Of a stretch of DNA of 62,898 nucleotides, positions 34,810-58,809 are shown one piece after another. Below the pieces are notes generated by a model, which ran no database searches, was not told the DNA's origin, and saw only the letters and a list, made by a program, of their open reading frames with translations. Origin of the DNA: Actinomycetales bacterium (GTDB lineage: Bacteria > Actinomycetota > Actinomycetes > Actinomycetales > Kineosporiaceae); NCBI GenBank assembly GCA_012719445.1, contig JAAYAH010000119.1, positions 1 to 62,898 on the forward strand, in the 5' to 3' direction. Position numbers and translations under genes: made by a program. Within the stretch, counting starts at the first letter, position 1; each line of letters starts with the position of its first letter.

Positions 34810-35002
34810 GCTGCCTCCGTTCGCCCGGCCCCGTCTCCGCGGCCTCCCCGGTCCCCGCGCCACGCCGGGACCGTGCCGGTCGTCCGCTGCGCCCGGTCCG
34901 TACCGGTTCCACCGGTCGGCGCCGCGGTGACCCGTTCGGGTCCCTATGCTGCGACGGCAGGCCGGGTACCGCCACCGGGCGGTGGTCGAGGAGGGAGGGC
35001 CG

Positions 35003-36955
35003 GTGGATCCGCTGGACACCCTCTGCGAGGCGGTCCGCACCACCCCCGTTCCCGGAGCACCGCCGTCCATCTCCCGGGAGTCGGCCGCCGTCGGGCTCGC
35101 CTTCCTCGACACCGCGCTGCGGCAGAACCACGTCCGGCGGCTGACCGAGCGGCTGGAGCTCGTCGAGCACCGGCTGGCCAGGCGCACCACGGAGCTCGAC
35201 ATCAGCCTCGGGCTGCTCGACGCGGAGCAGCGCGACGCCGCCGAGCTGTTCCGGACCATGCGCAACCACGACCCGGACGGCGCGGGACGGCAGGGTGCCG
35301 AGCTGCTCTGGGTGCCGGTGGCGCGGGTCGCCCAGGAGTGGGAGGCGCCCATCGCGGTGGTGTCGGCCGAGGGGGCCCGGCTGCCGCGGCTCACCCAGTA
35401 CGAGACCTCCCGGCTGCTCGCCGCGGGGCTGTACCAGCTGCTCAAGGGCATCCTGTCCAGCCTGCCCGAGTCGGCGGAGCGCTCCGACCTCTCCCGGCTG
35501 CTCTACAGCGAGGACGAGTCGCGGTGGCTGCTGCAGAGCGCCCTGTCGACCCTGCTCGCCGAGCGGCACAAGCCGAGGACCACTCACCCCCGGCCGGGCA
35601 CGGACCGGCACGGGGCGCGCCACCGGGAGCTCCTGCTCGGCGTCCTCGACCGGCACGCCCCCGAGCTCGACACCTACCGCGAACTGCTCGGGGTGGCGCT
35701 GCACGACAACCTCCTCGTCGTCGGGCTGGACGGGCGGCGCGACGAGCACCTGCTCAGCTACGACTCCCCGCCGCTGGTCGGGCGGGGGCACCCGATCGGC
35801 CCGGCCGGGGTGCTGCGCTGGCTGCGGCGCAGCGGCTCGTACTACCGGGTCGACTACCGCACCGCCGTCCCGGCGAACCTGCGCGCCTACCACCTGGTCG
35901 CGGAGACCGAGGGGTCCGTCGAGATCGCCCGGATGCACCTGGTGACCAGCGCGGACGTCCCGCGGGTGCGAGGGCTGGGGGAGGACCTGCTGGCGCTGGC
36001 CGCCCGGCTCGAGGCGACCCAGGCCGCCGAGGGCGGCGGCCGCGCGGGCGGGCGGCGGGTCCTGGAGTGGGAACTGCAGACGGTCCTGCGCACCCTCGCC
36101 GAGGTGGTCCGCTCCCGCCGCTGGGAGGCCGACCAGGCGGGGATCACCTTCGTCGAGGACCCGTTCCCCGTCTCCGGAGCCCTGGCCTGGGCCGGTGCCC
36201 CCGAGCAGGCGGACGCCCGGGGGTCGCTGCTGGACCAGCCGGAGGTCGGCCCGGGGGCGCTGCGCGCGGCCGCGGCGGAGCTGGAGGAGCTGGAGCTGAG
36301 GTCGGACCTCTCCCTGGCCAGCGACCCGGAGAGCAACCGCGCCCACGTGTACTGGCGCAGGTCCGGCGCGCCCTCGGCCACCGGACGGCGGGTGGGGATC
36401 CGGGTCACCGCGGTGCTGCGGGACTCGGTCCACTCCAGGGCCGACTCGATCATCGGCTACCTGCTGGCCCTGATGGGCATCACCTACCTGGTCGCGGCGA
36501 TGCTCACCGGCAGCCCGTGGCCGTTCGGGGTGTTCCCCGGCCGCAGGGCGGGGGACAACGCGGACGCCGTGGTGGCCGTGCTGCTCCTGGTGCCCGGGTT
36601 CATCTACACCCGGCTGGACCTGCCTCCCCCGCGGTCCATCGCGGCCCGGGTCCACCTGCTCACCCGCGGCGTCGCCGACCTCGCCATCGGCATCATGATC
36701 GTCATTGCGGCGACGGTGGCGATCCGGCCGGAGTCGCGGCTGCTCGTGACGATCCTCGAGGTCGCAGCGGGCCTGCAGGTCACGGCGCTGCTGGTACTGC
36801 TCGCCCAACGGCGGGGCGGGTTCGGCCAGGTGCCGGTACCGGCCTCGGTCCCGCGCTGGGCGAGGCTCGGCGCCGCCCGCGTCGGCAGGACCCGGCCGGA
36901 CGCCGACTTCACCGCGGCCTGGACGGACGGCGACGGGGTGAGGGCCGATGGCTGA
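35003..36955 (+). CDS. Unknown protein with soluble N-terminal region and four C-terminal membrane helices
   Basis: A 650-residue protein that I do not recognise. An early amphipathic, probably coiled-coil region (RLTERLELVEHRLARRTTEL) is followed by about 400 soluble residues with alpha/beta character. Four membrane helices then lie at about 480-600, with a Pro-rich pair between helices two and three (LPPPRS), and a charged tail. No Walker, kinase or protease motif is visible. The GTG at 35003 is chosen for its strong GAGGGAGGG site; ATG 34946 is upstream without one. The stop overlaps the start of the next gene by 8 bp, so the two products are very probably made together and interact. Confidence 0.78.
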   Translation: MDPLDTLCEAVRTTPVPGAPPSISRESAAVGLAFLDTALRQNHVRRLTERLELVEHRLARRTTELDISLGLLDAEQRDAAELFRTMRNHDPDGAGRQGAELLWVPVARVAQEWEAPIAVVSAEGARLPRLTQYETSRLLAAGLYQLLKGILSSLPESAERSDLSRLLYSEDESRWLLQSALSTLLAERHKPRTTHPRPGTDRHGARHRELLLGVLDRHAPELDTYRELLGVALHDNLLVVGLDGRRDEHLLSYDSPPLVGRGHPIGPAGVLRWLRRSGSYYRVDYRTAVPANLRAYHLVAETEGSVEIARMHLVTSADVPRVRGLGEDLLALAARLEATQAAEGGGRAGGRRVLEWELQTVLRTLAEVVRSRRWEADQAGITFVEDPFPVSGALAWAGAPEQADARGSLLDQPEVGPGALRAAAAELEELELRSDLSLASDPESNRAHVYWRRSGAPSATGRRVGIRVTAVLRDSVHSRADSIIGYLLALMGITYLVAAMLTGSPWPFGVFPGRRAGDNADAVVAVLLLVPGFIYTRLDLPPPRSIAARVHLLTRGVADLAIGIMIVIAATVAIRPESRLLVTILEVAAGLQVTALLVLLAQRRGGFGQVPVPASVPRWARLGAARVGRTRPDADFTAAWTDGDGVRADG

Positions 36956-38582
36956 GAGCATCGGGGAGTCCTCGGCCAGGGCACTGGCCGACCTCGCCCG
37001 GGCCGGGTACGCGATCCAGCGCGAGCCGTTCACCCAGGTCAACTTCGAGGTCCACCACGCCCCCGACCGCCGGGGCTACCTCAGGGAACAGGTGCGGAGC
37101 TGGCTGGACTCCGACGCCGCCGGCTCACGGCCGACCCCCCAGGAGACGGTGAGCTCCAGCGCCTACGGGACCGGCCTGCTCGTCGCCACCCGCCGGGGCG
37201 TCCTCGAACCGGAGATGTCCGCCCGGCACCAGGGCAGCAGCGCCCCGGTCCGGGTCAGGGTGGTGCAGCGCAGGGACGTGCGGGTCTTCGTCGGGTCCGC
37301 CCGGCCGAACCCGACCTTCGGTCACCGCGCGGCCGGCACCCTCGAAGGCATGATCAGCATCGACGAGCGTCAGGTGCCGGTCACCCACCGGCACGCGCTC
37401 GCCGTCCGGGAGGTGCTGCGCGCCGTCTCCTCCCTGGCCGCCGAGGTGGCCGGGGCCCCGCTGGTCTCGCTGCAGTCGCCGGTCCAGCTGCCCCAGCGGA
37501 GACCGGGCTCCGCGCCGTCGGAACGTTCGGAGAGCTGGGGGTTCCCGGCCTCGGTCGCCGTCCGGTTCGCCATGGCGCTGCCCCGCCCGCACGCGGAGCT
37601 GCGGCTGCGGCTGGCCGACGAGCTCACCGCGTTCTGCCGGGTGCACGGCTACGGCCTCTGGCTGACCGACACCCGGCTCGGCCACCGCTCGGGCAACTGG
37701 TTCCCGGTGCTGGAGCACACCTCCGAGCGCCCGGACGGGCGGGAGGGGCCGTCCCGGCGGGACGGGGACGGCGCCCCCGGCCGGAGGGAGGCGGTCCGGG
37801 CCTGCCTGCCGGTCACCCTCGTCGGTCCGGCCCGGGTGGGCACCGCCAGCGCGGTGCTGCGCTACCTGACCCGCTGCGAGGGCGTCGGCGTCCTAGGCTG
37901 CTCGGTGACCACCCTCGACGACCTGGCCTTCGTGCACCTGCTGCTGACCGGGCGGCGCGGTCGGGACGAGGCCGCCGGGCGGCTGCGGGAGCCCGACCGG
38001 CGCTCCGACGTGGGCACCGACCTGTTGCTGGCCCTTCCGGCCTGCGTCGAGGCGGTGACCGGCCGGCCGGCCGGGGTACCGGGCACGCCGGGGGACGGCG
38101 CGGTGCGGGAGGCCCTCGCCCGACTGCGCCGGGTGGCAGGCGACTACCAGGCGCTCGTCGGGCCGGCGCTCGCCGTCGAGGCCGCCCCGGCGACGCCACG
38201 ACGTCCGGTCTGGGTGTCCTGGCAGGTCGAGGGCGGCAACCCGGGGGTCGCCGGGCCGCTCGACGCGCTGATGAACGCCTTCGAGGCCGCAGGGGTCGGC
38301 GAGGGCAGGACCGCGACCGGGGCGACGGACGGCCCCAACGTCGAGTACCTGGTCTGCCGGGAGGTCGGCAGCTCCGTCGTCCGGGCGAAGGGGAAGCTGT
38401 CGCTGCCGGAGGAGTTCGTCACCGTCGCGGGCACCCCGCTGGAGGCGGCCCCGACGAAGCTGTGCGTGCAACTCGAGGACGTGTGGCGGGCGGCGATGCG
38501 CCCGACCGCCGACCGGCCGGGGCGGGCCGACGTCGCCGTGGCCTGGCGAGAGTACTGGCTGGCCCACGCCAGGTCGTCGTGA
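36948..38582 (+). CDS. Unknown soluble protein, partner of the upstream membrane protein
   Basis: A 544-residue soluble protein of unknown family. Sections I can describe: a helical N-terminus, a beta-rich block with RVRVVQRRDVRVFVGSARPN (about 105-125), a helical block with LRLRLADELTAFCRVHGYGLWL (about 210-235), a linker rich in Arg/Asp/Gly, VGTASAVLRYLTRCEGVGVL (about 285-305) and a C-terminal section with REYWLAHA. No membrane helix or catalytic signature is evident. ATG 36948 overlaps the preceding stop by 8 bp. High third-position GC shows real coding. Function unknown. Confidence 0.76.
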   Translation: MAESIGESSARALADLARAGYAIQREPFTQVNFEVHHAPDRRGYLREQVRSWLDSDAAGSRPTPQETVSSSAYGTGLLVATRRGVLEPEMSARHQGSSAPVRVRVVQRRDVRVFVGSARPNPTFGHRAAGTLEGMISIDERQVPVTHRHALAVREVLRAVSSLAAEVAGAPLVSLQSPVQLPQRRPGSAPSERSESWGFPASVAVRFAMALPRPHAELRLRLADELTAFCRVHGYGLWLTDTRLGHRSGNWFPVLEHTSERPDGREGPSRRDGDGAPGRREAVRACLPVTLVGPARVGTASAVLRYLTRCEGVGVLGCSVTTLDDLAFVHLLLTGRRGRDEAAGRLREPDRRSDVGTDLLLALPACVEAVTGRPAGVPGTPGDGAVREALARLRRVAGDYQALVGPALAVEAAPATPRRPVWVSWQVEGGNPGVAGPLDALMNAFEAAGVGEGRTATGATDGPNVEYLVCREVGSSVVRAKGKLSLPEEFVTVAGTPLEAAPTKLCVQLEDVWRAAMRPTADRPGRADVAVAWREYWLAHARSS

Positions 38583-40912: not shown

Positions 40913-41032
40913 GAACACCCTCCCGGGGACGAGCTGAGCAGCCGACCGGGAGACCCGACCCCCTCCGACGTGGTATTGAGTGCGTGCGCCACGGCGCGGC
41001 ATGCCCAGCGAGGAGGAGGAGGTGGGTCCGAC

Positions 41033-41647
41033 GTGACACCACCGGAGACCACCGGCCCGACGGCGGGCTCGCCCGCGACCACCGGCGGGCAGCCGGCCGC
41101 GCCCCGCCAGGCCCCGGACGGCGGCACCCCCGCCCCGCAGCCGCCGCCGGCCGAGGCCGCAGCCACCCCCGAGGACCTCCTCGTGACCTGGCACCACGGG
41201 ATCCGGGTGCTCCAGGTCGCCCACGGCCTGGCCTCGGAACGGCAGGCCCGGCTCACCCGGACCACCGAGGTGCTCATGGCGGCGCTCACGGCGGCCGTCG
41301 GCACGGCGATCCTGCTCTCGGACGTGAGCCCGATGAGCACCCTGCTGCGCAACAGCGCGGCGGGCCTCGCCCTGCTCGCCGCGGTGATCGGGGTGGTGCG
41401 GATCGCGTTCGACTACCCGGAGACGGCCCTGCAGCACCGGCAGGCGTCGCTGCGGTACGCGCACCTGCGCCGCGAGGTGGAGACCGTGCTCGGCAGCGGC
41501 ACCGTCATCGGCCAGCAGCAGGTCGCGACCCTGCGCACCGCCTGGTCCGGGGTCGAGCAGCAGGCACCCGGGGTCAGCGCGAGGCTGCGGGCACGGGCGG
41601 TGCGGGACATCGAGCGCGCCGAGGCCGACCGCGGGTCGGTCGACTGA
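41033..41647 (+). CDS. SLATT-like two-transmembrane protein (copy 1)
   Basis: A 204-residue protein. A Pro/Thr/Gly-rich N-terminus (about 1-45) leads to WHHGIRVLQVAHGLASERQARLTR, then two membrane helices (about 85-125), then DYPETALQHRQASLRYAHLRRE and a charged helical C-terminus. The two helices followed by the HRQA...Y..LRRE region match the SLATT superfamily (SMODS/SLOG-associating 2TM effectors). It is clearly paralogous to the protein at 49252. GTG 41033 follows GGAGGAGGTG. Confidence 0.78.
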   Translation: MTPPETTGPTAGSPATTGGQPAAPRQAPDGGTPAPQPPPAEAAATPEDLLVTWHHGIRVLQVAHGLASERQARLTRTTEVLMAALTAAVGTAILLSDVSPMSTLLRNSAAGLALLAAVIGVVRIAFDYPETALQHRQASLRYAHLRREVETVLGSGTVIGQQQVATLRTAWSGVEQQAPGVSARLRARAVRDIERAEADRGSVD

Positions 41648-45445: not shown

Positions 45446-47989
45446 ATGGTCGTCGTCCTGGTGCTCGCGCACCTCTACGGCGTCGTTCAGTTACTGGTCC
45501 TCGCCTCAGCGGCGCGGACGGTGCGCTGGCGGGTGCTCCTGCTGTCGGTCGCGACCGGCGCCTACCTCGCCGCCCCGCTGGCGGTGATGCTGCAGTTGGT
45601 GTGGACGAGGGGCCTGTCCGTGCTCACCGGCCGGGACCTGGCCGAGGTCACCAGGGCGGCCGCCCAGGGGATCGGCCCGATCACCGAGGCACTCGCCGTC
45701 ATGCTCCCCGTGGTGCTGCTCGGCCTGCTGGCACGGGTCAGGAGGCAGTGGAGCGCGACAGACCTGGTGCTCGTCGGCGCAGCCGTCGGCTCCGGGTTCG
45801 CCCTCGCCGTGAACCTGCTCCGCTGGGCAGGGCTCGCCGACCAGGCCGCTCCCGATCCCGGCGGCGGCTGGCTCCTGCCCGCGGGGGTGCGGGTGCCCGG
45901 TCTCGGCGAGGCGTTGCTGTCGCTGCTGCCCGCCGGTGTGGAGACCGGTGCCGCGGGACTGGCAGGGGGCGGCACCAACCTGCACCTGGTCTGGGGAGCC
46001 GTGGCCGGGCTCGGGGTCGCCCTGCTCAGCCCGGAACGGGAACGCCGCCTCCGCGTGGTCGGCGGGGTTCTCCTCGTCCTCGTGGTTGCGGATCACGTGG
46101 ACCACGCCCTCGACCTGCTCCGGGCCGACGGCGGGTTCGTGACGACGATCCTGTGGCCGCTCGGCGTGCTCCGGCACCTCAGCCCGCTGGTCGGGGCCGC
46201 TGCGGTGCTCACCGCCGTGGCCATGGACGTCCACGCCGTGCGCCGGGTGAGGTCACGGGCGCCCGAGATCCTCCTGGACTGTGAGTGCGAGGTCGCGGAC
46301 ACCGGCGAGGCCGGCGTCCGGCCGCCGCTGCGGCGCCTCCTCGCCCTGGCCAGGCTGGGCGCCCGATCGCTGCCGTGGTCGGCGTGCTGGCTGTCCGGCT
46401 TCCTGCGGTTGCGCCGGGTGTTCCTGGTGACCGTGGACCGGGCGCACCGCGGCGAGGGCGACGAGGCGAGACCCCGGTCGGCGCACCGGGCCGCAGGGGA
46501 GGTCGCCGGCCTGCAGGAGGACGTCCTGGCGTTGCACCAGGCCACCGAGGGCGTCCACGGCCTGGTGACCAGGGCGGACGCCCAGGCCCTGCGGTCGAGG
46601 GCCAGGAGCGAGGGGGCGAACGGCCTGGGCGACGGGGTCGATCCCCCGGACGACGGAGCGAACCCCGGCCCGGTGCGGCGGCTGCTGACCCTGGTACCTG
46701 GTCTTCGACCGGGACAGGCGGGGGACTGGCGACCGGAGGGCCGGCAGGCGTGGGCGGGGCTGACCCTGTGGTGCGCCGTCCTGCTGCCTGTGGTGATCTA
46801 CCTCCTGCTCGGCGGTACGGCGACCTTCGCCGGGGCGCAGGGCGCCGTGACCTCGACCGCCGGCTTCTTCCTGACCTGGCTGCTCGCGATCGCCGCCGCG
46901 GTGTGGACCGGCTGGTGCACCTTCCGCGGGGTGCGGGTCCTCCGCACCGCGCTGCGGCACCCCTACGCCGAGATCGGGGCGCTCACCGAGCTGCAGCTCG
47001 GCGTCGGGGCAGGCGGGGTCGTGGTGACCCTCGGCTGCCTGCTGTGCTCGATCGGCGGCGGCGGGGCGGCCGGAACCCTCCCCGAGGGGTCGACCATCCT
47101 GTCCGGGATCCCACTGGCGACCTGTCTGGTGCTGGCGATGGCGTCGGTGCTGTTCTTCCCGCCCTCGACGCTGGTCGAGCTGGCCGGTCCCGGCAGTGCC
47201 CTCGTGGTCATGGACGCGTCGAGCTCGTCCCGGCCGGAGTTCATCGCCTCGGCGGCGCTGGGGACGGCGGGTCTCGCCCTGCGCGAGGCGACCGGGGTCG
47301 GGGTGCCGAGAACGGGGCGGGTCGCCCGCCGCGAGGCCCAGGACGGCGGCGGGAGCCGGCTGGTGCTGCCCCGGTCGGTGCAGGAGGCGTTGGAGCGGTC
47401 CAACCGGGTGGGGGCCTCGGCGCGGAGGATCGGCGCCATGGCGGTGGTCACCCCCGAGGGCAAGCCCGTTCCCGGTCCGGCGCAGATCATCGTCTTCGAC
47501 GAGACCTACCCGGACAGCGGGGTCTTCCACGGGCACGTGCGGGGCGTCGACGCCCTCGGCATCAGCATGCGTTCCGCCCTGGAGACCGCGGGGATCCCCG
47601 GCTCCGTCGAGGCCAGGTACGAGGACCCGCCCCCGGCGCGGGCCGTGGACGTGATCACCGAGCTGAACCGGCTCACGCTGGGGCCGGAGGTCGCGAAGCT
47701 GCTGGTCGGTGCAGCCTTCCACGACCCGGACCGGGTCGCGGTGCAGAAGGTGTGCCTGAAGCTGCTGGAGGGGGCGAACATGGCCCTGTGCGGGGTCGCC
47801 GCCACCTGCCTCGGCCACCTGGCCCGGATCCACGGCACCGTCGACCTCGGCCGGGTGGTGCCTGCCCTGCGGAAGCTGACCGCCAATCCCGTCGTCGCCG
47901 CGGCGGCCCTCGACGCCCTCAACGACATCGAGCGCTTCGTGACCGACCACCCGGCGGGCGCCACCGCAGGGGTGGAGCCCGGCGCCTGA
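45446..47989 (+). CDS. PrsW-like pseudoprotease fused to a HEAT-like immunity-type domain
   Basis: An 847-residue membrane protein. The N-terminal part (about 1-270) aligns by eye to the PrsW glutamic protease fold: GPITEALAVMLP where PrsW has xEExxKxxP, GFALAVNLL where PrsW has FAxxEN, then His in NLHLVWG and DHVDHAL. The second Glu, the Lys and the third Glu of the protease are replaced, so proteolysis is unlikely. A charged cytosolic region (270-440) and three or more further helices follow. The end (about 740-835) is a HEAT-like repeat with CGVAATCLGHLARIHG, as in immunity proteins of polymorphic toxins. The ATG follows GGAGCAACC. I infer a signalling or immunity role only loosely. Confidence 0.75.
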   Translation: MVVVLVLAHLYGVVQLLVLASAARTVRWRVLLLSVATGAYLAAPLAVMLQLVWTRGLSVLTGRDLAEVTRAAAQGIGPITEALAVMLPVVLLGLLARVRRQWSATDLVLVGAAVGSGFALAVNLLRWAGLADQAAPDPGGGWLLPAGVRVPGLGEALLSLLPAGVETGAAGLAGGGTNLHLVWGAVAGLGVALLSPERERRLRVVGGVLLVLVVADHVDHALDLLRADGGFVTTILWPLGVLRHLSPLVGAAAVLTAVAMDVHAVRRVRSRAPEILLDCECEVADTGEAGVRPPLRRLLALARLGARSLPWSACWLSGFLRLRRVFLVTVDRAHRGEGDEARPRSAHRAAGEVAGLQEDVLALHQATEGVHGLVTRADAQALRSRARSEGANGLGDGVDPPDDGANPGPVRRLLTLVPGLRPGQAGDWRPEGRQAWAGLTLWCAVLLPVVIYLLLGGTATFAGAQGAVTSTAGFFLTWLLAIAAAVWTGWCTFRGVRVLRTALRHPYAEIGALTELQLGVGAGGVVVTLGCLLCSIGGGGAAGTLPEGSTILSGIPLATCLVLAMASVLFFPPSTLVELAGPGSALVVMDASSSSRPEFIASAALGTAGLALREATGVGVPRTGRVARREAQDGGGSRLVLPRSVQEALERSNRVGASARRIGAMAVVTPEGKPVPGPAQIIVFDETYPDSGVFHGHVRGVDALGISMRSALETAGIPGSVEARYEDPPPARAVDVITELNRLTLGPEVAKLLVGAAFHDPDRVAVQKVCLKLLEGANMALCGVAATCLGHLARIHGTVDLGRVVPALRKLTANPVVAAAALDALNDIERFVTDHPAGATAGVEPGA

Positions 47990-49770: not shown

Positions 49771-50171
49771 CCCTCTCCCGCGCGGGTCGCTCGTGCGGGT
49801 CTCTTGCGACCGTCGCTGATCCATGGCTTGATGCGGGCTGCGTTGTGCCCGAGGCGGATCAGGACGCGTCTGCTTGGGGGATGGCGGACTGCTGCATGGC
49901 ACTGTGCCAAGAGCGATTAGGGTAGGCCTCGACACGACAGCTTGGTACTGCCCTGACCCGCCTGGCAGGCGTATTCTGGGCGGATCGAGCGGTCTGTAAT
50001 GCCTCCTAACTACCGCATGCTGTGTGTAAGCTTCCCATCGGCCACATAGCAGATTGAATGGATTGATCTGACGTGAGACAGGACGGTCACGGGTTGTCGT
50101 CCCCCCCGGTCGCGACGACTGGACCCGGCTGCCCGGGCGACCCTCGGGCGAGGGGCGGCTGGTCCTCACCG
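49771..50171. other. AT-softer intergenic region before the XRE locus
   Basis: About 400 bp without a gene. Base composition drops in GC from about 49890 on. The decamer CTCCTAACTA (50003-50012) and octamer ACATAGCA (50044-50051) recur at 53333-53342 and 53349-53356. No promoter with both good -35 and -10 could be fixed. An in-frame GTG at 50073 could be a leaderless start for the small ORF that follows. Confidence 0.4.
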
Positions 50172-50420
50172 GTGTCCATCCGGGCGACGATCTCCACCGG
50201 GGCCGTCAAGGCCCGGGATTCCGGTGCCGATGCGCAGAAGGCGGCGGAGTTCTCTCTTCGTACGTCGGCATTCGGAGTCGAGTGGCCGGGGGCGCTGGCG
50301 GAAAGGCTGCCGGCACCCGGACAGGGTGGGGGGATCGTGGTACGGGACGCCCATGGGGCAGTCGCACGACAGCGTGAGGTGCGTGTCACCGCTGGGGACC
50401 TCCTGGAGGTGCGGTCATGA
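50172..50420 (+). CDS. Small unknown protein translationally coupled to the XRE regulator
   Basis: An 82-residue reading frame from GTG 50172 (or 115 codons from GTG 50073) whose TGA overlaps the XRE start as ATGA. That overlap is the main reason to believe it is expressed. The centre reads AAEFSLRTSAFGVEWPGALA and the end REVRVTAGDLLEV. No known family is recognised and it is not DUF397. Third-position GC is lower than in neighbouring genes, consistent with acquired DNA. A weak ribosome site leaves the start open. Confidence 0.45.
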   Translation: MSIRATISTGAVKARDSGADAQKAAEFSLRTSAFGVEWPGALAERLPAPGQGGGIVVRDAHGAVARQREVRVTAGDLLEVRS

Positions 50421-51325
50421 CGGCCAAGGGTTCCGCCAGGCTGGGCACTGATCCCATGGCCCAGCGCAGGCGGCTGCGGCAGGAGCTGAAGAGACTGCGC
50501 ACCGAGGCCGGGATGACCCAGCGCGAGGTGGCCCAGGCGCTGGACTGGTCCCCCTCCAAGGTGATCCGGATCGAGAACGGATCGGTGGCCGTGGCCACCA
50601 CCGACCTCCGGGCGCTGCTCATGCTGTTCGAGATGAAGGACAAGCGCCACGAGCAGGAGCTCGTGGAGATGGCCAGGGCATCGAAGAAGCAGCCGTGGGC
50701 CCAGTTCAGGGACGTCTACTCGCACGAGGCCATCCAGTACTTCGCCTACGAGGCCTCGGCCAGCATCATCCGCGAGTACAGCAACTCGTGGGTTCCCGGC
50801 CTGCTGCAGACCGAGGAGTACGCGACCGCTCTGTTGAGTGGTGTCTGGTCGCCCGAGGAGAAGGTGGTGTCGCGCAAGGTCGAGTTCCGGATGGAGCGTC
50901 AGGAGGAGCTGCTCGACCGTGAGCAGCCTCCCGAGATGTTCTTCATCATGGACGAGGCCGTGCTGCGGCAGGGGGTGGGCGGGCCAAGGACCATGCGTCG
51001 CCAGCTCGAGCGGCTCGCCGAGCTCGCCAAGCGGCCGGAGATCACGATCCAGATCCTTCCGTTCGGATCCGGCGCCCACTTCGGGATGCGGGGTCCGTTC
51101 ATCTACCTGGAGTTCCCCAGCGAAGGCGACGACGACGTCCTGTTCCTGGAGAACCAGCTCGGTGACCAGGTCTCCAGGGACGACACCGAGATCACCACCC
51201 AGTTCCTCCAGGCCTTCTGGGACATGGAGGAGAAGGCGTCCCCGACCGGGGCCCTGGGCGCGTACCTCGACAAGGCGCTCGCCTCGCTGTCCGAGGGGAA
51301 CGAGACGAGCGAGACGACGACATGA
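50417..51325 (+). CDS. XRE-family regulator with DUF5753 (WhiJ/Scr1-like)
   Basis: A 302-residue protein. The helix-turn-helix at about 22-70 reads LRTEAGMTQREVAQALDWSPSKVIRIENG, followed by a DUF5753 domain (about 105-285) with WVPGLLQTEEYA, RMERQEELL and ITIQILPFGSGAHFGMRG. The group is paired with DUF397 proteins in Streptomyces, where such pairs affect development and antibiotic production. ATG 50417 follows GGAGGTG at a five-base spacing and overlaps the preceding ORF. A DUF397 gene lies 241 bp downstream behind a palindrome that could be its operator. Confidence 0.92.
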   Translation: MTAKGSARLGTDPMAQRRRLRQELKRLRTEAGMTQREVAQALDWSPSKVIRIENGSVAVATTDLRALLMLFEMKDKRHEQELVEMARASKKQPWAQFRDVYSHEAIQYFAYEASASIIREYSNSWVPGLLQTEEYATALLSGVWSPEEKVVSRKVEFRMERQEELLDREQPPEMFFIMDEAVLRQGVGGPRTMRRQLERLAELAKRPEITIQILPFGSGAHFGMRGPFIYLEFPSEGDDDVLFLENQLGDQVSRDDTEITTQFLQAFWDMEEKASPTGALGAYLDKALASLSEGNETSETTT

Positions 51326-51400
51326 CGGTCGGACGAGTGACCCGAGACGACGGAAGGTCGAGCGGAAGGGACAACTGATAAGCCCCGGGTCCGTGGAGAG

Positions 51401-51429
51401 GCGATACCTCCCTCCGAGCGAGGTATCGC
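51401..51429. promoter_or_regulatory. Perfect 10-bp inverted repeat between the XRE and DUF397 genes
   Basis: GCGATACCTC (51401-51410) and GAGGTATCGC (51420-51429) are exact reverse complements with a nine-base loop. A TACACT hexamer suited to a -10 box lies at 51469-51474, 93 bp before the DUF397 start, so the palindrome could be an operator for the XRE protein or a terminator of its transcript. It lacks a U-tract. Confidence 0.6.
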
Positions 51430-51566
51430 AATCTTGTGCTGCTCTAGCCTCGGTGAGCCGATTCTGGCTACACTCAAGCAACACTCACAACGGACAAAGC
51501 GGGTACTCGGGACGATCGGACATCGTTGTCACCGTGCTGCGTCCACTGGTCTGCCGCGGGAGTGCT

Positions 51567-51812
51567 ATGTCCGAGCCAGAGGGTATGAACGCAATGTGGC
51601 ACAAGAGCACTCACTCTGCGTCGGGTGGGTGCGTCGAGGTGCGGATCGTGGACCGGAAGATCCAGGTCAGGGACTCGAAGGACCCACAGGGGCCGGTCCT
51701 CAACTTCTCCGTCGTCGAGTGGACGGCCTTCCTCGGCGGTGTGCGGGACGGCGAGTTCGATCTCTCGCCGGCGCAGCGGGGTGGGGGATTCGCGGAGCCG
51801 CTGCCGCGCTGA
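51567..51812 (+). CDS. DUF397-domain protein
   Basis: An 81-residue protein with the complete DUF397 pattern: MWHKSTHSASGGCVEV, VQVRDSKDP-like segment (IQVRDSKDPQGPVLNFS) and VEWTAFLGGVRDGEFD. DUF397 proteins act with XRE-DUF5753 regulators, probably as direct binding partners that switch them off. ATG 51567 follows GGGAG; ATG 51585 is a second choice. The pairing with the upstream regulator is typical. Confidence 0.93.
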   Translation: MSEPEGMNAMWHKSTHSASGGCVEVRIVDRKIQVRDSKDPQGPVLNFSVVEWTAFLGGVRDGEFDLSPAQRGGGFAEPLPR

Positions 51813-51905
51813 CTGCTCCGGGCACGACAGGTCCTGCGCCCTCGTGCGCGGCGCAGGACCTGGTCGGATCCCGTGGTTCCGTCGGGTCGTCGCGGTGGCT
51901 CCGGA

Positions 51906-52649
51906 TCACGTGGTCGCCGGGGCGTACCTGGTCCGGGTGCGGCGCCGAGTCACCTCGGGGGCAATCGGTGCCGGTGGGTCGGCGATCCCCGGCGCCTCCG
52001 AGCCTCTCGCCGTCGCCGAGGCTCTGATCACCTCCGACGACCGCGCTCCTCGGGGCGGACCCGCGGCTCGGGGCGGCTCGACCGCCTGTCGGTCCTCCCT
52101 CCGGATGATGTCCAGGGTGACGAGGTGGGGACGACCGGGGTGACCGACGACGTGGACCGTCCTCGCCCAGCAGGCGGTACGGAACAGGTCCAGCGCGCCG
52201 TGGAAGTCGTCGGTCGTCGTCCCCGTCGGGAGCAGCAACGTGACCCGCTCACCGCCGGCCGTGGTCCTGGTCAGCAGCACGGCCGGGGGGAAGCCGTTCC
52301 GGGAGTGGATCCGGGCCTCGTCGCAGGCTGCCCGCACCCGGTGCGGGGTGGCCAACCGGAAGGCGACCCTGATCGTGAACCGACGCAGCGGCCCGACCGT
52401 CGTGACCAGGGCGAGGGCTGCGCCGACGAGCAGCGCCGCCCCCGCGGTTCCCCAGGCACGCCACGACCCGGCGAGCACGGCGAGCACGGCGACGGTCAGC
52501 GTCGTCTCGTACCGCCAGCGCCAGACCAGGGTCGGCGCCGTCGGCCGGTGGGTCGGACGCAGGCGGGCGGCGTCCAGGACCACGTTCCCCTCCTGACGGA
52601 TCCGGGCATCGCCCACCGTGCGACGCGGCCCCACCCGCGCCCTGGTCAT
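51906..52649 (-). CDS. Two-TM protein resembling actinomycete integrative-element cargo
   Basis: A 247-residue protein. A basic N-terminus is followed by WRWRYETTLTVAVLAVLAG, two membrane helices (about 40-85) and a cytosolic domain with HRVRAACDEARIHSRNGFPP, GERVTLLLPTGTTTDDF and HLVTLDIIRRED, then a Pro/Arg-rich tail. From memory, the layout and the motifs HRxRxxCxxAxIxSR...GERV...LVxLDxIRR are typical of proteins encoded beside FtsK-like transfer genes in actinomycete integrative conjugative elements. No FtsK/Tra, Rep or integrase is present here, so this is a fragment or a relocated module. The ATG overlaps the upstream stop as ATGA. Confidence 0.72.
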   Translation of the reverse strand: MTRARVGPRRTVGDARIRQEGNVVLDAARLRPTHRPTAPTLVWRWRYETTLTVAVLAVLAGSWRAWGTAGAALLVGAALALVTTVGPLRRFTIRVAFRLATPHRVRAACDEARIHSRNGFPPAVLLTRTTAGGERVTLLLPTGTTTDDFHGALDLFRTACWARTVHVVGHPGRPHLVTLDIIRREDRQAVEPPRAAGPPRGARSSEVIRASATARGSEAPGIADPPAPIAPEVTRRRTRTRYAPATT

Positions 52650-55402: not shown

Positions 55403-56785
55403 ATGCCAAGTGGTGAGCGGTGGCCAGGCGGCGCGTGGTCCCGGCGGGGGACGCTGCGGCACGGGGTCGCGATCGTCGGAGCCCTCGGTGTCGTACTCGC
55501 ACTCACGGGGTGCAACAGCGACTCGGGTGACGGGGGCGGAGGCGGTGAGGTCAAGGCCGGGTGCGAATCGTTCGCCGACTACGGGACCTTCGACGGAGCC
55601 TCGGTGAACGTCTACTCCTCGATCCGCGACATCGAGGCCGAGCGCTTCGAGGAGTCGTTCAAGCAGTTCGAGGACTGCACCGGGATCGACATCGTCTGGG
55701 AGGGCACCGGGGAGTTCGAGGCCCAGCTCCAGGTGCGGGTGGACGGCGGCAACGCGCCGGACATCGCGACGATCCCGCAGCCCGGTCTGCTGAAGACCCT
55801 GGTCGACAAGGGAGCCGTCAAGCCGGCGGCCGAGAAGGTGAAGACCCAGTCCGAGGCGAACTACCCGAAGGACTGGCTGGACTACGGCACCGTTGCCGGG
55901 ACGTTCTACGCCCCGCCGCTCGGCGCCAACGTGAAGTCGTTCGTCTGGTACTCGCCGAAGACGTTCACCGAGAAGGGCTGGCAGATCCCGACGACGTGGG
56001 CCGAGCTGAAGACTCTCAGCGACACCATCGCCGGAACCGGGATCAAGCCCTGGTGCGCCGGGATCGAGTCCGGTGACGCCACCGGCTGGCCGGCGACGGA
56101 CTGGGTCGAGGACCTCGTCCTGCGCACCGCGGGCACCGAGGTCTACGACCAGTGGGTCACCCACGAGGTCCCGTTCAACGCCCCGCAGATCGTCACGGCC
56201 GTCGACGAGGCCGGTTCCATCCTCAAGAACGACAAGTACGTCAACGGCGGCTTCGGCGGCGTCAAGTCCATCGCGACGACGGCGTTCCAGGACGCCGGCC
56301 TGCCCATCCTGGACGGGAAGTGCGCGCTGCACCGGCAGGCGTCCTTCTTCGCCAACCAGTGGCCGGAGGGCACCAAGGTCGCCGAGGACGGCGACGTCTA
56401 CGCCTTCTACCTGCCGGGTCAGGACACCAGCAGCAAGCCGGTCCTCGGCGGCGGGGAGTTCCTCGCGGCGTTCAACGACAAGCCCGAGACCCAGGCCGTC
56501 CAGCTCTACTTCGGGTCGGAGTCGTGGGTGAACGCCAAGGCCAAGATCGGTGACTGGTTCACGGCGAACAACAAGCTGGACGTCGCCAACGTCGCCAACC
56601 CGATCGACAAGCTGTCGGTCCAGCTCCTGCAGGACCCGGAGACGGTCTTCCGGTTCGACGGCTCGGACATGATGCCGGGCGCCGTCGGGGCCGGCTCCTT
56701 CTGGAAGGGCATGACCGACTGGATCACGGGGAAGTCCACCGCGGACACCCTGAAGTACATCGAGGACTCCTGGCCGAAGAGCTGA
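55403..56785 (+). CDS. aglE: Alpha-glucoside-type ABC transporter substrate-binding lipoprotein
   Basis: A 460-residue extracellular binding protein. The signal ends in lipobox LALTGC (Cys at about 37), then a Gly/Asp-rich linker and a family-1 sugar-binding fold: VNVYSSIRDIEAERFEESF, GTGEFEAQLQVRVDGGNAPD, GWPATDWVEDLVLR and GGGEFLAAFN. These motifs match AglE-like binding proteins for alpha-glucosides such as trehalose, maltose or sucrose. The ATG follows GGAGGACAGCC. The permease genes follow after 132 bp. Confidence 0.9.
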   Translation: MPSGERWPGGAWSRRGTLRHGVAIVGALGVVLALTGCNSDSGDGGGGGEVKAGCESFADYGTFDGASVNVYSSIRDIEAERFEESFKQFEDCTGIDIVWEGTGEFEAQLQVRVDGGNAPDIATIPQPGLLKTLVDKGAVKPAAEKVKTQSEANYPKDWLDYGTVAGTFYAPPLGANVKSFVWYSPKTFTEKGWQIPTTWAELKTLSDTIAGTGIKPWCAGIESGDATGWPATDWVEDLVLRTAGTEVYDQWVTHEVPFNAPQIVTAVDEAGSILKNDKYVNGGFGGVKSIATTAFQDAGLPILDGKCALHRQASFFANQWPEGTKVAEDGDVYAFYLPGQDTSSKPVLGGGEFLAAFNDKPETQAVQLYFGSESWVNAKAKIGDWFTANNKLDVANVANPIDKLSVQLLQDPETVFRFDGSDMMPGAVGAGSFWKGMTDWITGKSTADTLKYIEDSWPKS

Positions 56786-56917
56786 CCCGTTCCCGGTGCC
56801 CGGCCCGGCCGACCACGTGCCGGGCCGGGCACCGGACCGAGCGGCTCAGCACGCCGTACGCCTCCTGCCGGCCACGGGACGCGGACGGCTCGTCGTGTCC
56901 TGGCCGGGGAGGTTGCC

Positions 56918-57886
56918 ATGGAGGACTGGCAGCCGAAGCTGCTCCAGCTCGGCTACGGGATCCTCGCCTTCGTCGCGGTCGTCGTCGTCCTCATGTTCGT
57001 CGTGGACAAGGCGCCACGGCGGGGGAAGGAGCGCTACCAGCTCGCCTTCTTCCTCGGTCCGGCCGTCCTGCTCCTCGTCGCCGGACTGATCTGGCCCAGC
57101 ATCCGCACCATCTGGCTGTCCCTGCTCGACGCGCGCAGTGACGAGGTCGTCGGGCTGGAGAACTACCAGTGGATGTTCACCCAGCCGGAGATCCTCACCG
57201 TGCTGCGCAACACCTTCATCTGGGTGCTCATCACCCCGGTGTCGGCGACCGCCATCGGGTTGCTCTACGCCCTGCTCATCGACAAGACCAGGGGAGAGTC
57301 GGTCCAGAAGATCTTCGTCTTCATGCCGATGGCGATCTCCTTCGTCGGCGCGAGCATCATCTGGAAGTTCGTCTACGCCTACCGGCCGGAGGGCAGCGAC
57401 CAGATCGGCCTGCTCAACCAGGTCTGGGTGTCGCTGGGCGGCCAGCCGCAGCAGTGGCTGCTCAACGCCCCGGCCAACACGGTCTTCCTCATCATCGTCA
57501 TGGTCTGGATCCAGGCCGGGTTCGCGATGGTGGTGCTGTCCGCGGCGATCAAGGGGATCCCCACCGAGATCGTCGAGGCGGCGCGCATCGACGGGGTGAA
57601 CCCCTGGCAGATGTTCTGGCGGATCACCCTGCCGTCGATCCGACCGGCGGTGATCGTCGTCTACGTCACCATCTCCATCGGCGTCCTCAAGGTCTTCGAC
57701 ATCGTCAGGACCATGACCGGCGGCAACTACGACACCAGCGTGGTCGCCAACGAGCTCTACACCCAGGCGTTCCGGGCCGGGCAGCCCGGACGGGGCTCGG
57801 CGCTCGCGGTGGTGCTGTTCGTGCTGGTGATCCCGATCGTCGTCTTCCAGGTCCGTCAGCTCCGCAAGCAGCGGGAGGTCCGATGA
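56918..57886 (+). CDS. aglF: Alpha-glucoside-type ABC transporter permease 1
   Basis: A 322-residue permease: an N-terminal helix, then the MalF-type region with LENYQWMFT and the EAA motif EIVEAARIDGVNPWQMFWRITLP, followed by terminal helices. Along with the next gene it forms the membrane channel for the sugar captured by the binding protein. The ATG follows GGGGAGG. The stop overlaps the next start as ATGA. Confidence 0.92.
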   Translation: MEDWQPKLLQLGYGILAFVAVVVVLMFVVDKAPRRGKERYQLAFFLGPAVLLLVAGLIWPSIRTIWLSLLDARSDEVVGLENYQWMFTQPEILTVLRNTFIWVLITPVSATAIGLLYALLIDKTRGESVQKIFVFMPMAISFVGASIIWKFVYAYRPEGSDQIGLLNQVWVSLGGQPQQWLLNAPANTVFLIIVMVWIQAGFAMVVLSAAIKGIPTEIVEAARIDGVNPWQMFWRITLPSIRPAVIVVYVTISIGVLKVFDIVRTMTGGNYDTSVVANELYTQAFRAGQPGRGSALAVVLFVLVIPIVVFQVRQLRKQREVR

Positions 57887-58809
57887 GCGTCAGCGCCGAG
57901 TCCGCGCCGGGGGCGCCCGTCGGGGCGGCGACCGGGTCGCTCACCGCCATGGCCGGCCGGGTGCGGCGTCGCCTGACGTCGCGGGCGGCCAGCGTCGCGG
58001 CGATCGTCATCGCGATGCTGTGGACGATCCCGACCTTCGGCCTGCTCGTCTCCTCGTTCCGGCCGGAGCAGCAGATCAAGACGACGGGGTGGTGGACGTT
58101 CTTCCGCGACCCGCAGATCACCCTGGAGAACTACCGGGAGGTGCTGCTCGAGGGCTCCAACCCGCTGGCCGGGTACTTCCTCAACTCCTTCGTCATCACC
58201 GTTCCCTCGGTGCTGTTCTCGGTGTTCCTCGCCTGCCTCGCCGCCTACGCGCTGTCCTGGATGGAGTGGCGCGGGCGGGACTGGGTGTTCATCGGGATCT
58301 TCGCCCTGCAGATCGTGCCGTTGCAGATGGCCCTGGTCCCGCTGCTGCGGATCTTCGTCGGCTGGGGGCTGGAGGACTTCGAGAAGTACTGGACGGTGTG
58401 GATCGCGCACACCGTCTTCGGATTGCCGCTCGCTGTCTTCCTGCTGCACAACTTCATGTCCGAACTGCCCCGGGAGCTCATCGAGGCGGCCCGGGTCGAC
58501 GGCGCGGACCATGCCCGGATCTTCCGGAGCGTGGCCCTGCCCCTTGTCGTGCCCGCCGTGGCGTCGCTGGCCATCTTCCAGTTCCTGTGGATCTGGAACG
58601 ACCTGCTGGTGGCGTTGATCTTCGCAGGGGGGACGGCGGACGTCGCCCCGCTCACGGTCCGGCTGGCCGAGCTGGCCGGGACCCGGGGGAACGAGTGGCA
58701 GCGGCTGACGGCGGGGGCCTTCGTCTCGATGGTGGTGCCGCTGATCGTGTTCCTGTCGTTGCAGCGGTACTTCGTCCGCGGTCTGCTCGCCGGCGGGCTC
58801 AAGGGGTGA
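57883..58809 (+). CDS. aglG: Alpha-glucoside-type ABC transporter permease 2
   Basis: A 308-residue MalG-type permease with six helices and the EAA loop ELIEAARVDGADHARIFRSVALP. The ATG lies after GGGAGGTCCG and overlaps the stop of permease 1. No ATP-binding gene follows, as in many actinomycete sugar importers that share a common MsiK-type ATPase encoded elsewhere. Confidence 0.92.
   Translation: MSVSAESAPGAPVGAATGSLTAMAGRVRRRLTSRAASVAAIVIAMLWTIPTFGLLVSSFRPEQQIKTTGWWTFFRDPQITLENYREVLLEGSNPLAGYFLNSFVITVPSVLFSVFLACLAAYALSWMEWRGRDWVFIGIFALQIVPLQMALVPLLRIFVGWGLEDFEKYWTVWIAHTVFGLPLAVFLLHNFMSELPRELIEAARVDGADHARIFRSVALPLVVPAVASLAIFQFLWIWNDLLVALIFAGGTADVAPLTVRLAELAGTRGNEWQRLTAGAFVSMVVPLIVFLSLQRYFVRGLLAGGLKG

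Follow-up and report, generated by a model that had tools for sequence, protein, structure and literature searches.

The window analysed here is the whole stretch of 62,898 nucleotides of contig JAAYAH010000119.1 (assembly GCA_012719445.1), from an Actinomycetales bacterium of the family Kineosporiaceae. It contains two overlapping genes, here called A and B, that form an undescribed, large and tightly coupled pair, so that the candidate put forward by the original prediction stands. Gene A (35003..36955, + strand, as all the features given below) has a GTG start and a TGA stop and encodes a membrane protein of 650 amino acids (aa), and gene B (36948..38582) starts with ATG and encodes its soluble partner of 544 aa. 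Both assignments are based on the open frame, the codon pattern and the existence of relatives. We tentatively propose, with a probability of about 0.38, that the two genes encode a switch acting on the cytosolic side of the membrane, in which A would be a channel or pore and B a cytosolic ligand-sensing protein that controls it.

The A-B pair and its distribution

The two frames are open as had been claimed, and their GC contents at the three codon positions (0.775/0.520/0.969 in A and 0.767/0.574/0.956 in B) follow the pattern of genes in DNA of 75% GC, indicating that both are coding. When two Jiangella genomes were compared, gene A showed 49 synonymous versus 21 non-synonymous codon changes, and gene B a slight synonymous excess (36 versus 32). 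The ribosome site announced for the first gene, the purine-rich GGAGGGAGGG (34990..34999), lies ahead of the GTG, and the predicted 8-bp overlap between the B start and the A stop is ATGGCTGA (36948..36955). An alternative in-frame ATG at 34946 would extend A to 669 aa. The start at 35003 aligns with the starts of the Kineosporia and Amycolatopsis kentuckyensis proteins, and the A proteins of Jiangella and Amycolatopsis sp. NBRC 101858 start further upstream than its equivalent. The coding pattern together with the existence of relatives rules out a random overlap or an artefact.

Each of the 38 B copies examined is immediately preceded by a gene A in the same orientation (30 from Amycolatopsis, the one in the window, one from Kineosporia, two from Jiangella and four from Micromonospora). 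The junction was tabulated at 39 loci, many of them with several candidate B starts, and in 32 the A stop is preceded by a B start codon at a distance of 1 or 5 bases, so that the genes overlap by 4 or 8 bp. The nearest B start of four Amycolatopsis loci falls 4-6 bases past the first base of the A stop codon, and in the two Jiangella loci and in Micromonospora globbae it lies 110 bases ahead of the A stop. Within the 80 Amycolatopsis genomes, 30 full-length A genes pair with 30 B genes in the same 29 genomes. The sole A without B among these 80 (genome G947, L100:5423-6349) consists of an N-terminal fragment plus a short inverted piece and is a decayed remnant. Homologues occurring separately would have argued against the pair, and this truncated gene was the only lone A. 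The pairwise distances of A and B correlate across 25 loci with r 0.996, as expected for any linked genes. The 5-kb surroundings of the pair at 30 loci hold 1505 open reading frames (ORFs) of 100 aa or more. No similarity cluster of these occurs in more than five loci, so that the unit consists of just these two genes; three clusters are shared between genera, two of them by at least two genera and the other by three.

Gene A is broken at two of the 38 copies. In A. suaedae (L011:8010-9977) it carries one in-frame TAG, for which decay and sequencing error are indistinguishable; B is open there, and a TGA that had been flagged sits at its end. In M. globbae it is split by an insert of about 17.2 kb, and only the C-terminal part of A adjoins B. 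This insert (L072:8247-19901 and L073:1-5588) has 68% GC and encodes, near one end, a protein of about 520 aa that resembles recombinases and was predicted by eye to be a large serine recombinase, as well as regulator-like ORFs and an ABC transporter, also judged by eye. It looks like an integrative element that uses gene A as its site.

The occurrence of the pair is rare and patchy, in scattered soil actinomycetes. The genome of the window has one A and one B. In genome samples that partly overlap, so that their counts are not additive, A was found in two of 13 genomes of the same family (own included), and B in two of 297 genomes of the order, in three of 394 of the class (the own genome and two of one genus) and, by profile, in one of 296 of the phylum (the own genome only). 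B is present in 29 of 80 Amycolatopsis genomes, with 30 copies since one genome has two, and in four of 160 Micromonospora genomes. One Amycolatopsis genome (G950; L068 and L071) carries the pair twice on one contig, in versions that have diverged and are separated by about 38 kb. Named records with relatives are A. kentuckyensis, A. suaedae, Amycolatopsis sp. NBRC 101858, Jiangella muralis, Kineosporia sp. A_224 and M. globbae, six loci among 290 pattern-matched stretches that were scanned by two short motifs and thus give a lower bound. A plasmid collection yielded no match of B, and no relative of B was confirmed in 84 viral-contig stretches. A viral origin of A was also discarded, the best match in BFVD having an E-value of 0.41. 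The A of the window differs by 59% from the Kineosporia A and by 57-59% from those of other genera, and its B is slightly nearer to the Kineosporia B (58% difference versus 60-64% to the others). This pattern, compared without a housekeeping-gene control, would fit transfer or a very old divergence.

In agreement with the original prediction, neither protein could be placed in a characterised family by any match above cut-off in the libraries searched. At E ≤ 10 the A and B of the window gave sub-threshold matches or none in Pfam, PADLOC, NCBIfam and PHROGs, and none at all in PADLOC. At E ≤ 1, 28 B proteins matched four Pfam families, each through a single B member, and 25 A proteins matched ten, each through one, two or three A members, so that no family was common. 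Sequence searches of the PDB, made with each protein singly and with a profile of each, gave two chance matches (E 0.72 and 1.1) for the B profile and none for the other three queries. The candidates rejected comprise a diaminopropionate ammonia-lyase (E 0.033, residues 11-55 only, below cut-off), the SPW-repeat (PF03779) for A (11.4 bits versus a curated cut-off of 31.5, matched by one of 25 A members), and DUF350, phrog_31917 (E 0.031) and other sub-threshold matches that lie below cut-off or concern no more than one to three members. We also rejected the candidate remote relatives of A in the rest of the class. Besides the three true ones, the search, in which at most four candidates per genome were scored at first so that weak relatives were possibly missed, gave 17 weak rows (E 0.005-0.95), distributed over 16 genomes. 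These rows cover 35-90 positions of the profile each, and three of the proteins viewed by eye appear to be one SbcC-type ATPase-like protein and two ABC transporter-like proteins. A text search of the literature, in which sequence queries are impossible, found no paper on this A-B pair. The statement that the pair has no known domain holds by sequence; it does not hold at the level of the structural models, in which B has an ACT-like or ferredoxin-like class of fold and A a beta-sandwich joined to a four-helix membrane architecture.

Predicted architecture of the two proteins

Protein A was modelled alone by AlphaFold from 25 sequences (predicted local distance difference test, pLDDT, 81; predicted template modelling score, pTM, 0.78). 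Alignment A5, with 25 A rows, omits three A genes, namely the one with a stop in A. suaedae, the split one in M. globbae and that of locus L061, whose match extends beyond its end; three Micromonospora pairs were added for the analysis of conservation, giving 28 A rows and 31 B rows. The large soluble N-terminal part, the coiled coil and the four C-terminal membrane helices that had been described from the sequence are all found in the model. The soluble part, residues 1-477 (35003..36433), contains the ten main strands of a beta-sandwich (44-55, 58-68, 101-110, 235-243, 248-254, 280-290, 295-302, 306-315, 446-452 and 463-474) and two helical insertions (about 122-234 and 316-445). The coiled coil corresponds to two long helices, 319-341 and 348-378 (residues 319-378; 35957..36136). 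The last strand enters directly into the first transmembrane helix (TM1; residues 478-502, 36434..36508), which is followed by TM2 (520-536, 36560..36610), TM3 (552-574, 36656..36724) and TM4 (578-604, 36734..36814). All four are hydrophobic helices of the model, and TM2, the most conserved among them, includes the core of the conserved motif LLLxPGFxYxRL (527-538).

A hydrophobic segment at the N-terminus is absent from all the 25 A proteins; a 19-residue hydrophobic window (1.61 at 235) was seen only in the Kineosporia A. On average, the TM1-TM2 loop has 1.4 K/R and 2.2 D/E residues, the TM2-TM3 loop 3.3 and 0.2, and the tail 7.5 and 4.1. By the positive-inside rule, and given that there is no apparent signal peptide, both ends of A and its sandwich are predicted to be cytosolic. 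The soluble part of A should face the cytosol, an orientation opposite to that of the receptor channels. The membrane helices differ in conservation, since among 11 A sequences sharing less than 80% identity seven of 17 positions are invariant in TM2, versus none of 25 in TM1, one of 23 in TM3 and none of 27 in TM4, and the LLLxPGFxYxRL motif is kept in the 28 A rows. This would match a pore-lining or coupling helix; another interface would show the same.

The fold matches of A point weakly to the pentameric ligand-gated channels. In a Foldseek search of the PDB they account for 48 of the best 50 of 669 matches (best E 0.076, probability 0.84), with nothing at E ≤ 0.001. In the VIA comparison they account for 40 of the best 50 rows (Z 9.2-11.5), and 39 of these 40 span both the sandwich and the membrane part (170-281 residues, from 24-49 to beyond 600); the remaining one, 1oed, is pore only. 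Like these channels, which include the bacterial ELIC, GLIC and DeCLIC, the model of A has a beta-sandwich of about ten strands that passes straight into four membrane helices, the second of which is conserved in the A family. It differs from them in the predicted cytosolic location of its soluble part, as the channels have an extracellular N-terminal domain, and in its large helical insertions, its lack of Pfam matches and the weak significance of its fold matches. The models PF02931 and PF02932 were neither among the ten families matched by the 25 A proteins (E ≤ 1) nor matched by the A of the window (E ≤ 10). A genome search for PF02931 was uninformative, because it gave no match in 198 phylum genomes nor in 14 controls.

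According to Jaiteh and colleagues 2016 (PMC4795631), pentameric ligand-gated channels are defined by the signature [F/Y]PxD at the beta6-beta7 loop, an arginine of the pre-M1 linker forms a salt bridge with the Pro-loop aspartate, and M1 contains a proline. The [F/Y]PxD signature is absent from A. At the turn that corresponds to this loop according to the strand order of the model, between two adjacent strands, A has, like the Pro loop, an invariant proline (P290 in 28/28), but one that is preceded by I/V/M and followed at position +2 by T/S/N. The charges of the salt bridge appear reversed, with R/K294 and, just ahead of TM1, D474 both kept in 28/28, and position 473 being K/R in 25/28. It is possible that R/K294 and D474 form a charge-swapped version of the channel contact. 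In 25 of the 28 rows TM1 has a single proline right at its beginning (480); the A of the window has none there. The membership of A in the pentameric channel family is not established. It seems quite improbable that A founds an "inside-out" branch of it, with the same protomer, a cytosolic ligand domain and a charge-swapped R/K294-D474 salt bridge, that would be gated by B as a dedicated ACT-type sensor and not by a directly bound extracellular agonist.

The model of B, also computed alone, was obtained from eight sequences (pLDDT 70, pTM 0.78) and is a soluble alpha/beta chain, as the original prediction had it for this protein. Its top 19-residue hydrophobic window (1.56 at residue 315) falls within two modelled strands; 11 of the 31 B rows are just above 1.5 in this window, with a maximum of 1.82. 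The chain comprises four successive ferredoxin-like units, whose limits were set by eye from the secondary structure of the model. Domain 1 (residues 31-118, 37038..37301) is incomplete and bears the motif VxFEVHHxxxRxGYL at the turn between strand 1 and helix 1, as seen in the alignment columns. Domain 2 (130-255, 37335..37712) is ferredoxin-like or ACT-like, domain 3 (285-404, 37800..38159) has VTLVGPARVG at a strand-helix turn, and domain 4 (418-532, 38199..38543) is a complete beta-alpha-beta-beta-alpha-beta unit; these three domains are supported by the fold matches.

The best Foldseek match of B is an aspartate kinase (E 5.2e-6, probability 1.00, whole-chain template modelling score 0.24), and SerB2, with its ACT domains, was found with probability 1.00 and E 1.2e-3. 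The VIA comparison covered 994 chains, nine of them with Z of 8 or more, and matched residues 128-412 to the threonine dehydratase regulatory domain (Z 9.9, 159 residues, 4.0 Å). The ACT consensus has a glycine at the turn between strand 1 and helix 1, and we take the B motif VxFEVHHxxxRxGYL to resemble the ACT DxxGxL turn. Within it H36, H37 and G43 are conserved in 31/31 B rows and L45 in 30/31. B is thus similar to the tandem ACT regulators (threonine dehydratase, aspartate kinase, GcvR, SerB2 and CASTOR1) in its tandem beta-alpha-beta-beta-alpha-beta units, in the glycine of the first strand-helix turn and in its best fold matches. It differs from them in that a single chain holds about four units, in its particular conserved motifs (HH, GPARxG, DYQ and YLxCR) and in having a membrane protein as partner, and none of 28 B members matches an ACT Pfam model at E ≤ 1. 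The resemblance to ACT exists at the level of fold only, and other ferredoxin-like proteins match too.

The proposed switch and its alternatives

In the switch that we propose, several A subunits would assemble into a homo-oligomeric channel or pore in the membrane, and the large cytosolic beta-sandwich would drive the four-helix membrane part, with TM2 as the lining or coupling helix. B would be a cytosolic sensor made of ACT-like domains. It would bind a small molecule, perhaps an amino-acid-like metabolite or a nucleotide, and contact the soluble part of A, either holding A shut or opening it. The analysis shows the two genes, their strict pairing, the model fold of each protein and the conservation of TM2, and from there we infer the cytosolic orientation, an oligomeric channel, ligand binding by B and a contact between the two proteins.

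Several observations weigh against this proposal. On the side of A, the resemblance to the channels is not significant alone, with that best Foldseek E of 0.076 and template modelling scores of at most 0.27. The root-mean-square deviations of the full-length channel rows in VIA are large (5.1-8.8 Å), and the channel signature is missing. Moreover, ten of the best 50 VIA rows are unrelated proteins (seven TRPML channels and three designed bundles) that match the membrane part alone with Z 9.2-11.1, so that a four-helix bundle inflates the score, and the PDB is very rich in pentameric channels. On the side of B, the whole-chain scores are low even for the best match, the ferredoxin-like AcrB pumps rank just behind it in Foldseek, microtubule-doublet proteins (Z 7.8-8.8) are among the best VIA rows, and the tandem-ACT structures 2nyi (Z 7.4) and 1u8s (Z 6.9; B 283-535) stay below the level that the tool considers meaningful. 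These mixed matches make "ferredoxin-like" a safer label for B than ACT. Finally, 67 positions are invariant among 13 B sequences sharing less than 80% identity, many of them charged or polar, which is more than a plain ACT regulator seems to need and suggests that an enzymatic role is possible.

One alternative is a second-messenger defence module, where B, as a ferredoxin-core enzyme, would make a nucleotide signal on infection. The A sandwich would bind this signal and its membrane helices would then form a pore that kills the cell, similarly to Panoptes or to CBASS with S-2TMbeta effectors. We consider this unlikely. According to PMC12657218, Panoptes (OptS/OptE) is a two-gene system formed by a signal enzyme and an effector with a beta-barrel and two transmembrane helices, and it resembles our pair, as does CBASS Cap15 with its S-2TMbeta effector, in joining a soluble signal protein to a membrane effector with a beta-rich soluble domain. 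The pair shares with such modules its two genes, its beta-rich and predicted cytosolic domain beside membrane helices, its patchy occurrence (29/80 Amycolatopsis and 4/160 Micromonospora genomes) and the many invariant polar residues of B. Adenylyl cyclases also appear among the VIA rows of B (AC8 with Z 6.2 and human soluble cyclase with Z 5.3, over 220-225 residues), but below the meaningful level of the tool. However, A has four C-terminal membrane helices and not two, and B is no recognised nucleotide polymerase and has no family match. As to the nucleotide synthetase or cyclase partner that is a trait of CBASS, Pycsar and Panoptes, B has neither a PADLOC match at E ≤ 10 nor such a Pfam family, and no third gene occurs in more than five of 30 loci. 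The lack of PADLOC matches for both proteins of the window and of matches above cut-off in Pfam or NCBIfam also argues against a defence role, as does the lack of a plasmid match of B and of a confirmed relative of it in viral contigs.

The neighbouring genes bear on the same question. PADLOC was applied to 83 of the 169 neighbour ORFs and matched 45 families, and among the best 25 of these none occurs in more than three neighbours; those found in two or three each are the ABC-type mad3 and mad8, AriA and a desaturase model. Three single ORFs gave strong matches (PDC-S44, 3e-78; PD-T4-6, 4e-63; mad6, 6e-53) and would favour a defence module, but the commonest Pfam families of the neighbours are metabolic and regulatory. 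A defence island was dropped as an explanation, since the 83 of 169 ORFs covered give no consistent signal.

A toxic membrane protein with its neutraliser is a rather improbable explanation, in which A alone would depolarise the membrane and B would bind and restrain it, so that A could not be kept without B. The translational overlap, the equal copy number and the lack of any intact A without B in the 80 Amycolatopsis genomes agree with it, and B is still open where A is broken, in A. suaedae and M. globbae, as expected if the loss of A is harmless; two broken genes are nonetheless too few to weigh. Antitoxins are typically small, but here both proteins are large, B being long, multi-domain and rich in conserved residues, and the membrane protein gene comes first.

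We give as little credit to a housekeeping role in signalling or transport, in which A would be a transporter or envelope protein under an ACT-type metabolite sensor without any part in conflict. ACT domains usually regulate amino-acid metabolism, and the commonest families among the neighbours are metabolic, which would be in line with such a role. Against it, the pair is very rare and patchy outside Amycolatopsis (three of 394 class and one of 296 phylum genomes, that of the window counted in both), and its neighbours are hardly conserved between genera, unlike those of a pathway regulator.

The ternary CATRA systems, described as caspase-dependent conflict systems in PMC8195603, occur in the same genus, with CATRA-C (PF20270) matches in two of 40 Amycolatopsis genomes, and were rejected because none of the 28 B proteins matches PF20270 at E ≤ 1, no A or B member matches a CATRA model, and two CATRA proteins show no resemblance by eye.

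Genomic neighbourhood and significance

In the window, the Pfam matches of the genes upstream of A-B correspond to an ATP-binding cassette (ABC) ATPase, FKBP, an acyl-CoA ligase and VIT1, and those of the genes that follow to MFS, SMP-30, a small protein without match, SpoIIE/GAF and SpoIID. Across loci, the commonest families in the 83 neighbour ORFs (among the best 25 of 97 families) are zinc-type dehydrogenases, TetR, DnaJ, ABC and hydrolases. The neighbours in other genomes include one ORF with a match to an SrpI-like shell protein of type 2A encapsulins and four ORFs with DnaJ domains. Further along the window, 40970-41647 encodes a small protein with two hydrophobic segments that by eye looks SLATT-type-like and has no Pfam match at E ≤ 0.001, and 45446-47989 is an ORF of 847 aa with several hydrophobic segments, also judged by eye. 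The G+C content drops to 0.67-0.68 at 50001-52000 and 56001-58000, versus about 0.74 elsewhere, and these segments are possibly foreign DNA.

A and B form a real, obligately paired two-gene unit to which no library searched gives a name and which, beyond the genus of the window, occurs in four genera of actinomycetes that have named records. To the original prediction, this analysis adds the strict pairing, the rare and patchy occurrence, the classes of fold, the predicted orientation and a testable mechanism, and since named Amycolatopsis strains carry the pair, it can be studied experimentally. If A is indeed a channel or pore under a cytosolic ACT-like sensor, the pair would join metabolite sensing to membrane permeability, and we know of no bacterial example of an ACT-like metabolite sensor paired with a channel or pore. 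If the resemblance of A to the pentameric channels reflects descent, the pair would also bear on the origin of neurotransmitter-gated channels.

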